From positions 2,728,001-2,792,000 of the forward strand of contig NZ_CP151634.1 of assembly GCF_038397725.1 (NCBI RefSeq): a stretch of DNA of 64,000 nucleotides. Reading direction: 5' to 3'. Source of the stretch: Microbacterium sp. LWO13-1.2. GTDB lineage: Bacteria > Actinomycetota > Actinomycetes > Actinomycetales > Microbacteriaceae. Of this stretch, positions 42,725-44,827 are shown piece after piece (position 1 is the stretch's first letter; each line of letters opens with the position of its first letter). A program made the position numbers and the translations under genes. A model generated the notes under the pieces. It was not told where the DNA came from and did not search any database. It saw only the letters and a list, made by a program, of their open reading frames with translations.

Positions 42725-43375
42725 TCAGCCCTTGATCTGGATGCCGAGTCCGGCCGCAATGGTCGGGGCGAGCTGCTGCACCTGGAACTCGGTCAGTGTG
42801 GTTCCGCGCAGGCTGTTCGCGTCGAGGTAGGCGAGGGCATCCAATCCGCGCAGATCGACGTGCGTGGCACGCATGCCGCGCGGATCGACCTCGTCGCTGC
42901 GAGTGCTCGTGAAGCGAACCCGGGTGAGTTCGGCCTGCGGCATGTCGATGGCGCGGATGCTGCAGCCGGTGACCTCGATATCTTCGGCGCGCGCTGTCCC
43001 GAGGTTCAGGTAATCGATGCGCACGTCGCGGAGTTCGAGCTCGGCGATGCGGGCGCCGCTGAGATCGAGCGTCCCGATCCGTCCGCCGGTGATGCGAAGG
43101 CGACGGATTCCGGAATTGCGGAGTTTGAGGGAGGCCACCCTCATGTCGGTCATCGCGACGTCGAGGATCGTGGCACCGGTGAGGTCGACCGTGTCGGCAT
43201 CCGCCGTGACCACGCACTGCTCCAAGGAGGCGTACGCGAGATCCGCTGAGCCCGCGATCTCGAGGCGTGCGGCCAACAGGTCGGCTCGACGGGCAGGAGT
43301 GGCGGGTGCGAGGTCCTCCGGGAGGTCGGGTGCGGTGACGCGAGGCGCGACGGGGGAGTCGGAGGAGCGGGCCAT
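42725..43375 (-). CDS. Pentapeptide-repeat-like beta-helix protein
   Basis: The 216-residue protein has, from about residue 45, many short repeats in which Leu, Ile, Val or Met recur every five residues with polar residues between (LTGATILDVAMTD, LRNSGIRRLRITGG, LDLSGARIAELELRD). This suggests a right-handed quadrilateral beta-helix. Some pentapeptide proteins mimic DNA and protect gyrase, but nothing specific points to that here. A TACGCT element six bases before ATG 43375 fits a leaderless mRNA. The gene is convergent with the ABC importer and lies beside the repeat-flanked nuclease-like gene. Confidence 0.7.
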   Translation of the reverse strand: MARSSDSPVAPRVTAPDLPEDLAPATPARRADLLAARLEIAGSADLAYASLEQCVVTADADTVDLTGATILDVAMTDMRVASLKLRNSGIRRLRITGGRIGTLDLSGARIAELELRDVRIDYLNLGTARAEDIEVTGCSIRAIDMPQAELTRVRFTSTRSDEVDPRGMRATHVDLRGLDALAYLDANSLRGTTLTEFQVQQLAPTIAAGLGIQIKG

Positions 43376-43387: not shown

Positions 43388-43452
43388 TGCGGTGGCACGG
43401 ACAGGGGTGGGTGAGCAGCGCGCCTCGGCTTGCTGCAACCCCGGAAGCGCAA

Positions 43453-43524
43453 CTTCGCAGACCTTCCCGAACTTCGCAGGAATTTCAGGAGAGTCTGCGA
43501 AGACGCTGCAATTCTGCGACGAAC
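43453..43524 (+). repeat. Left 72-bp repeat flanking the nuclease-like gene
   Basis: Built of CTTCGCAG boxes and their complements. It matches the right copy (44479-44550) at 62 of 72 positions without gaps, in the same orientation. Inner arms CTTCGCAGG and TCTGCGAAG pair with one wobble; the outer arms are slightly degraded compared with the right copy. Confidence 0.85.
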
Positions 43525-43618
43525 GAGTTGTCCTACACAGGGGGTGGATGCTGGAGCCCGTCCACAGTTCCGGGATGCGCAGGGAATGAGCGGCGGTGGG
43601 ATGCGGCATGCTGCCGGA

Positions 43619-44467
43619 ATGAGCCAGGACAACCTCATCGAGGCCGTCACCAATGGCGGTGGTGTCATGCGCGTGGAGCGGCTCCGCGAACTCGGTTTTC
43701 GGCGCACACTTCTCGAGTCCGTACTCGCCGCAGGCCGACTTCAGCGCGTGCGCCGCGGATGGGTGGCGTTGCCGAACGTGGATCCGCTTCTCGCATCGGC
43801 GGCGCGGCGCGGCGTCGTGCTCACATGCATCACCCAGGCGCGCCGACTCGGCTTGTGGGTGCACGAGACGCCGGCAGCTGCGCACGTCGGAGCGACGCCA
43901 GGCAGCGCGGGTGGAAAGCCGGACACGATCCGCGTGCACTGGGCGCGGCCGTTGCTGCCACGTCACCCGGACTCGCTCGTGGATCCGATCGAGAATGTGC
44001 TCGCGATAGTCGCCGAGTGCGAGCCCCATGAGCAGGCGCTCGCGACCTGGGACTCCGCGCTCAACAAGGGACTGGTCACGTTGGAAGGACTCGCCGGGTA
44101 CGACTGGCGCCCGGCGGCGCGGCGTCTGCTCGGAGAAGCGACGCCGTTCTCGGACGCCGGGCTGGAGACCTACCTTCGCCCTCGACTGCGCTGGCTGCGG
44201 CATCCGATCCGGATCCAGACGTGGATTGCGGGCCACAGGGTCGACGCGCTCATCGGCGAGCGTCTCGTGCTGCAGATCGACGGAGCACATCACGTCGGCC
44301 AGCAGCGCAGCGAGGACATCAGACACGATGCCGAGCTGAGGCTCATGGGATACCACGTGGTTCGCATCAGCTACCACCAGATGATGCACGAATGGGCATT
44401 AGTGCAGGACCTGATCATGCGAGCCGTCGCTCAGGGGCTACATCTCGCGTCGCGTCGCCGGGCCTGA
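43619..44467 (+). CDS. AbiEi-like N-terminal domain plus DUF559/Vsr-like nuclease domain protein
   Basis: The 282-residue protein starts with a winged-helix segment like the AbiEi antitoxin domain (IEAVTNGGGVMRVERLRELG, then LAAGRLQRVRRGWVALP). The C-terminal part (HRVDALIGERLVLQIDGAHH, then DAELRLMGYHVVRISY) matches the DUF559/Vsr-like restriction endonuclease fold, with candidate metal-binding aspartates in VDALIG and QIDGAHH. No AbiEii toxin gene is adjacent. ATG 43619 is used; ATG 43586 and 43601 are in frame and possible. The gene sits inside two direct 72-bp repeats, 94 bp after the left and 11 bp before the right copy. Confidence 0.75.
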   Translation: MSQDNLIEAVTNGGGVMRVERLRELGFRRTLLESVLAAGRLQRVRRGWVALPNVDPLLASAARRGVVLTCITQARRLGLWVHETPAAAHVGATPGSAGGKPDTIRVHWARPLLPRHPDSLVDPIENVLAIVAECEPHEQALATWDSALNKGLVTLEGLAGYDWRPAARRLLGEATPFSDAGLETYLRPRLRWLRHPIRIQTWIAGHRVDALIGERLVLQIDGAHHVGQQRSEDIRHDAELRLMGYHVVRISYHQMMHEWALVQDLIMRAVAQGLHLASRRRA

Positions 44468-44478
44468 TGGGGGCGCTT

Positions 44479-44550
44479 CTTCGCAGAACTGCCCCAACTT
44501 CGCAGGAATTCCTGGAGAGCCTGCGAAGAAGCTGCGGTTCTGCGAAGAAC
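44479..44550 (+). repeat. Right 72-bp repeat flanking the nuclease-like gene
   Basis: The less degraded copy. Outer arms CTTCGCAGAA (44479-44488) and TTCTGCGAAG (44538-44547) are perfectly complementary, and inner arms CTTCGCAGG (44498-44506) and CCTGCGAAG (44520-44528) also are, so it can form two nested stems. It lies just upstream of the ileS T-box. Confidence 0.85.
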
Positions 44551-44611
44551 CGCTGGCGCACGGCTCGGCCCCGCAAGGCGCCCGGATGCCGCACTCACGA
44601 CCTGCGCGTAG

Positions 44612-44827
44612 AATGAGAGCACAAGCACTGATCCGGCCATCACCGGGGAGCTCTCGGAAGAACGCAGGAGACTGCAAGTAGAACCGAGCGGGGCAGGCCC
44701 GTCATCGCCGCAGTGAGAGTGGTCGCGTCGTGAGACGCAGCACGTGAGGTGGTACCGCGGTCTCGCAGGAGATCGTCCTCGCAGCAGCATCCGCCCGTGC
44801 CACCAGCTCAGATCACTGCGAGACGAC
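44612..44827 (+). promoter_or_regulatory. T-box riboswitch controlling ileS translation
   Basis: The leader has the conserved T-box TGGTACCGCGG (44750-44760), whose TGGT core pairs with the ACCA end of uncharged tRNA, and an upstream stem with an ATC isoleucine specifier (GGCCATCACCGGGGAG). GTCTCGCAG (44760-44768) is perfectly complementary to CTGCGAGAC (44816-44824) directly before the start codon, a likely sequestering helix. This is the short translational type known for actinobacterial ileS. There is no terminator-like T run. Uncharged tRNA-Ile should open the start region. Confidence 0.88.

Follow-up and report, generated by a model that had tools for sequence, protein, structure and literature searches.

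An AbiEi-DUF559 nuclease gene flanked by four-box palindromes in Microbacterium: a candidate REPIN-like partnership

Passages of PMC8266576 and PMC3116915 describe REPtrons, in which a single resident gene is flanked by its palindromes, copies of these lie in other intergenic regions and each gene has its cognate sequence, and report that the pairing of the REP (repetitive extragenic palindromic) hairpin is preserved through compensatory change. In the literature searched, HuH-type RAYTs (REP-associated tyrosine transposases) are the sole enzyme family generally tied to dispersed bacterial palindromes. As a case study we consider here a nuclease gene and its two flanking palindromes in Microbacterium sp. 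LWO13-1.2, located in a stretch of 64,000 nucleotides ("the window") that corresponds to positions 2728001-2792000 of the complete 4.0-Mb genome. It seems to us an evenly balanced possibility that gene and palindromes belong to a single system of two parts, a resident nuclease gene with its own small mobile palindromes, like REPIN/RAYT, and we infer that the protein moves the palindromes. No description of such an AbiEi-DUF559 partnership was found in the literature searched, most subscription journals lying outside it.

The likeness to REPIN/RAYT pairs lies in the cognate palindromes that flank the gene and in their intergenic dispersal at low copy number, both of which are found here. The differences are an AbiEi-EDxHD nuclease fold in place of the HuH tyrosine transposase (TnpA_REP), four boxes spaced at 18-19 nt with no GTAG-type tag seen, and about 1 to 7 copies per genome beyond the flanks where REPIN/RAYT systems have hundreds. 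The features of the locus, in window coordinates, are as follows.

43447..43524, no strand: left palindrome, with boxes at 43453-43460, 43472-43479, 43495-43502 and 43514-43521
43619..44467, plus strand: AbiEi-like + DUF559 / Vsr-EDxHD-like nuclease gene, 282 residues (profile matches, fold comparison, alignment)
44473..44550, no strand: right palindrome, with boxes at 44479-44486, 44498-44505, 44521-44528 and 44540-44547
43404..44604, no strand: segment missing in syntenic gene-free relatives, which have 21-104 bp without a palindrome there instead

An earlier note on this DNA had described the gene as enclosed by two direct repeats, and its coordinates hold. The repeats are real: they align without gaps over 78 nt at 85% identity, and the local alignment of the two 450-nt flanks of the gene scores 54, compared with 21 at best in 1000 dinucleotide shuffles and with 12-16, in either orientation, for the flanks of five other genes of the window used as a control. 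They are not plain direct repeats, however, as each is an imperfect four-box palindrome, with CTTCGCAG at +0 and +19 and its reverse complement at +42 and +61. On folding, both elements beat all of 200 shuffles (z -6.8 for the right and -4.7 for the left). A detector that scores the agreement of four 8-mers in the box arrangement, the box sequence being left free, finds only these two elements at a score of at least 39 in the whole 64-kb window. The start codon of the nuclease gene follows about 95 bp downstream of the left element, and the right element begins about 6 bp past the stop codon.

The four-box design is general in the genus Microbacterium. This genome encodes five family genes, four of which have related repeats on both sides, with four unrelated sequences. 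In a set of 34 loci drawn from this genome and others of Microbacterium, 21 carry elements with a score of at least 36 on both sides, 8 on one side and 5 on none, a score also reached by 10 of the 136 distal control pieces of these loci. A set of 80 named loci, nearly all from Microbacterium and two from Agromyces, which overlaps in genomes with the former set and is not independent of it, gave elements with a score of at least 38 on both flanks in 29 cases, on one flank in 23 and on none in 28 (81/160 flanks positive, against 11/616 control pieces). When spacings from 12 to 30 were compared, 18 and 19 alone stood out; in the named set they pass in 29.7% and 20.3% of 158 flanks, and each of the remaining spacings in no more than 1.3%. 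When the left and right flanks of the same gene are aligned, the median score is 34.5, against 14 for mismatched pairs, and 61 of 112 own-flank pairs lie above 99% of the mismatched pairs. Other loci with the repeat-gene-repeat order, which the earlier note had proposed to search for, are found in Microbacterium with differing box sequences, and its view that gene and repeats belong together is supported, the boxes being the conserved part. At some loci (the flanks of L053, and L048, L049, L052 and L062) palindrome copies stand in tandem or clustered on one side of the gene, as in REPIN clusters.

The protein matches Pfam DUF559 (PF04480) with 29.8 bits (cut-off 20.6) and AbiEi_3_N with 17.1 bits, under the cut-off of 26, while the PADLOC AbiEi models align within residues 1-108 (best E 5.4e-6). 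Fold comparison assigns residues 1-175 to an AbiEi-antitoxin-like two-domain fold and residues 178-279 to a DUF559 / Vsr-EDxHD-like nuclease fold. In an alignment of 32 of 34 relatives, two proteins with stop or start problems being excluded, E183, D209, D221, D233, D237 and R249 are invariant, and 31 of the 32 match DUF559 at E<=0.01. The only Pfam families matched are DUF559, MTES_1575 and AbiEi, and the best folds are Vsr/EDxHD and AbiEi, so that the protein is not of the HuH / Y1 transposase type.

The Vsr-like catalytic fold is that of the EDxHD homing endonucleases; by contrast with I-Bth0305I, this gene has no intron, an AbiEi-like DNA-binding part and cognate palindromes on both sides, and the patterns used did not detect it in viral contigs. 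The AbiEi-type antitoxin fold is shared with the AbiE type IV toxin-antitoxin systems, from which the locus differs by its extra nuclease domain, by repeats that are also downstream and dispersed, and by the lack of an adjacent AbiEii nucleotidyltransferase toxin; as previously noted, no such toxin partner was detected among the immediate neighbours of the gene, which were those scanned. The Vsr mismatch endonucleases differ in turn, as the present protein has a DUF559 sequence match and a fused DNA-binding part, with no methylase among the listed neighbours of its gene.

Extra palindrome copies were sought for five families, the repeat-flanked paralogue 2419439 being left out. The CTTCGCAG family has seven further copies in this genome (genome-search E 1e-12 to 0.04; one of the seven was detected only in a separately examined stretch), and the families of two paralogues have three further copies (GATCAGGA) and one further copy plus a partial one (GTCGGACG), such that three of the five family genes of this genome own a palindrome family with extra intergenic copies. 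In other genomes, the GATCGCAG family has two further copies in G014, and TCGGGAGG has six copies in G048, two in G037 and six in G018. A search with TCGGGAGG gave matches in 11 of 59 genomes, in five of which (G048, G037, G032, G004 and G006) a match and a family gene are no more than about 400 bp apart; the CTTCGCAG family is present at E<=1e-5 in 2/59 genomes, this one included. According to gene calls made with a codon-usage script, 19 of 20 scattered copies are intergenic (8 convergent, 8 tandem, 3 divergent) and one is inside a called gene. G005, G040 and G022 lack the copy at 2805183 in the corresponding intergenic position, where their best palindromes score 27-29 compared with 45, and a fourth relative has other DNA there; at site 2861120 the empty-site comparison is not clean, since the relatives have a different gene on one side. 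One result that the earlier note named as refuting its reading, a repeat that is widespread and has no connection with genes of this type, is half borne out: some copies are remote from the gene, yet every palindrome family found goes with a nuclease gene of this type. In G009, whose examined gene has another box, a near-perfect hairpin of 65 nt that resembles the CTTCGCAG family stands alone at L065 1500-1570.

Boxes match in 8 of 9 protein pairs with a distance under 0.2 and in 5% of those beyond 0.4, and in 63 of 71 intact proteins, near-identical ones having been removed, box similarity gives a partial correlation of -0.17 with residues 61-165 (0/500 permutations as low). The spacers between boxes are complementary at 62.5% of positions within an element against 29.3% between loci, the highest mean of 2000 permutations being 37.1%, and, at loci with both flanks, at 57.4% within an element against 40.6% across the two flanks. 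Because this complementarity is kept within elements while the sequence drifts, the pairing of the element, beyond the boxes alone, appears to be under selection.

Of 198 genomes from the order, 91 carry homologues (E<=1e-20), representing 37 of 72 genera; in a thinner sample of the phylum, with 12 candidates scored per genome, homologues were found in 4 of 198 genomes at E<=1e-15. Flanking repeats, direct or inverted, with a score above 30 occur at 22 of 66 loci outside the family, compared with 0/66 distal pairs and 12/1000 mismatched pairs, and 10 of the 66 keep them at a stricter 99% level; L242, L260 and L273 have long near-perfect hairpins of unrelated sequences. A virus or plasmid cargo was rejected: no relative was confirmed among the viral contig stretches matching two peptide patterns, and relatives were found in 2 of 72,556 plasmid records, both from Tsukamurella (L321 and L322) and without flanking repeats. 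These two "plasmid" records bear pheA as well as antiporter genes and are possibly chromosomal fragments.

Tentatively, as a view that falls a little short of even balance, we propose that AbiEi-EDxHD nucleases represent another kind of REPIN-like system with an evolutionary origin of its own, recognising and multiplying their own palindromes in numerous genera within a single actinobacterial order, and that the recognition sequences change fast while the gene keeps its site. The AbiEi-like part would bind the four boxes as an array, and the EDxHD-type nuclease part would nick or cut the palindrome, possibly when it forms a hairpin or cruciform during DNA replication, after which repair or strand transfer would place palindrome copies at new intergenic sites. 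The gene would then be a resident helper and the palindromes its small mobile dependants, a metal-dependent nuclease taking the place of the HuH tyrosine transposase in a REPIN/RAYT-like pair, and the upstream palindrome probably doubles as an autoregulatory operator. Passages of PMC7319586 report that the binding sites of AbiEi proteins are arrays of inverted repeats, and passages of PMC3943268 that an EDxHD homing endonuclease dimer spans nearly 60 bp, which makes a four-box palindrome of about 70 bp a plausible target. The protein may cut the palindrome and so spread it.

It is unlikely, in our judgement, that the protein is simply an AbiEi-type repressor, with autoregulatory flanking palindromes, scattered copies as its targets and another role for the nuclease part. 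The N-terminal 175 residues match AbiEi and the left element stands ahead of the start codon, and passages of PMC7319586 describe binding of two 23-bp inverted repeats by AbiEi of Streptococcus agalactiae and of four in its own promoter by Rv2827c. A regulon does not fit well with a second palindrome directly 3' of the gene, with intergenic copies of which 8 of 19 are convergent and only 3 divergent, or with invariant nuclease residues; moreover, it is entire palindromes, beyond mere operators, that appear and disappear between relatives.

The earlier note had proposed a 1.1-kb mobile unit, moved or lost by recombination between its two repeats. The gene is found beside ileS, which lies within the examined flank in 43 of 114 loci, and in 7 of the 30 ileS sites examined (out of 58) a family gene is within 1.5 kb of ileS. 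Four gene-free relatives (G023, G022, G002 and G040), whose synteny is based on DNA alignment, align to the window until about 43403 and resume at about 44605, with 21-104 bp and no palindrome in between; G038 is like this gene-free pattern at lower identity. Relatives without the gene are also without both repeats, and gene and repeats were therefore gained or lost together. This block-wise presence or absence agrees with a unit; recombination between the repeats, however, would leave one of them behind, and as the gene-free sites read show none, it was rejected as the main explanation. The ileS site is moreover common to many species, between which the box sequence varies, so that the gene is a long-term resident and not a hopping cassette, and the scarcity of relatives in plasmid records and their absence from viral contigs by the patterns used point the same way. 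We thus regard a recombining cassette as improbable.

A similarly low probability is given to palindromes spread by another enzyme, such as a RAYT or an insertion sequence, or acting as plain terminators, the gene being merely among them. RAYTs do spread palindromic intergenic repeats in other bacteria (passages of PMC8266576), and the start of the right element just past the stop codon would suit a terminator, which does not require four boxes at fixed spacing; yet every family gene is flanked left and right by a sequence particular to it, and the design is rare away from the genes, as seen in the distal pieces (11/616) and in four 100-kb stretches of relatives, where none of the 400 kb reaches a score of 42. 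Least probable of all is a self-protection or defence system in which palindromes serve as decoys that restrain a nuclease released on infection, as suggested by the origin of AbiEi folds in abortive-infection systems and by the PADLOC label AbiEi, since no AbiEii-like partner is among the immediate neighbours scanned, the site is conserved beside housekeeping genes and the lineage-specific spread of copies is left unexplained.

Several observations weigh against a nuclease that multiplies its own palindromes. Loci with no element at the thresholds used amount to 28/80 in the named set and 5/34 in the genus set, and include the fifth family gene of this genome, 963792. At ileS, two of the seven gene-bearing sites lack an element at a score of at least 37, and two of the 23 gene-free sites have a weak palindrome (scores 37 and 38, the latter beside a truncated gene). 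Three of the nine CTTCGCAG elements barely outfold shuffles (z about -1.7), box similarity gives a partial correlation of only -0.04 with the winged helix (85/500 permutations as low), the 18/19-nt design is uncommon outside the family (14/272 flank tests), and the 22 of 66 are all the outside loci with strong flanking repeats. Finally, the six TCGGGAGG elements of G018, on contigs 3-6, adjoin no family gene; these are possibly orphans after gene decay. The only family gene listed for G018 is truncated (residues 93-277).

The neighbours of the nuclease gene are ABC transporter genes, a pentapeptide-repeat gene and ileS. The pentapeptide-repeat protein gene (42725-43375, minus strand; Pentapeptide_4 E 9.3e-7, below cut-off) adjoins the left element, and a T-box leader at 44619-44783, which matches RF00230 at E 3.5e-6 with 38 bits where the gathering score is 93, lies just downstream of the right element and just upstream of ileS. 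The palindromes were rejected as a known RNA family, an Rfam search at E<=1 giving only this T-box and one chance-level match.

If the proposed partnership is true, enzyme-palindrome partnerships arose more than once, and the spread of REP-like elements would become testable by comparison. Four or more gene-palindrome pairs in one genome would provide built-in cross-controls for binding specificity, and the family may offer a candidate role for part of DUF559, still named as a domain of unknown function, and for AbiEi antitoxins annotated without a toxin.
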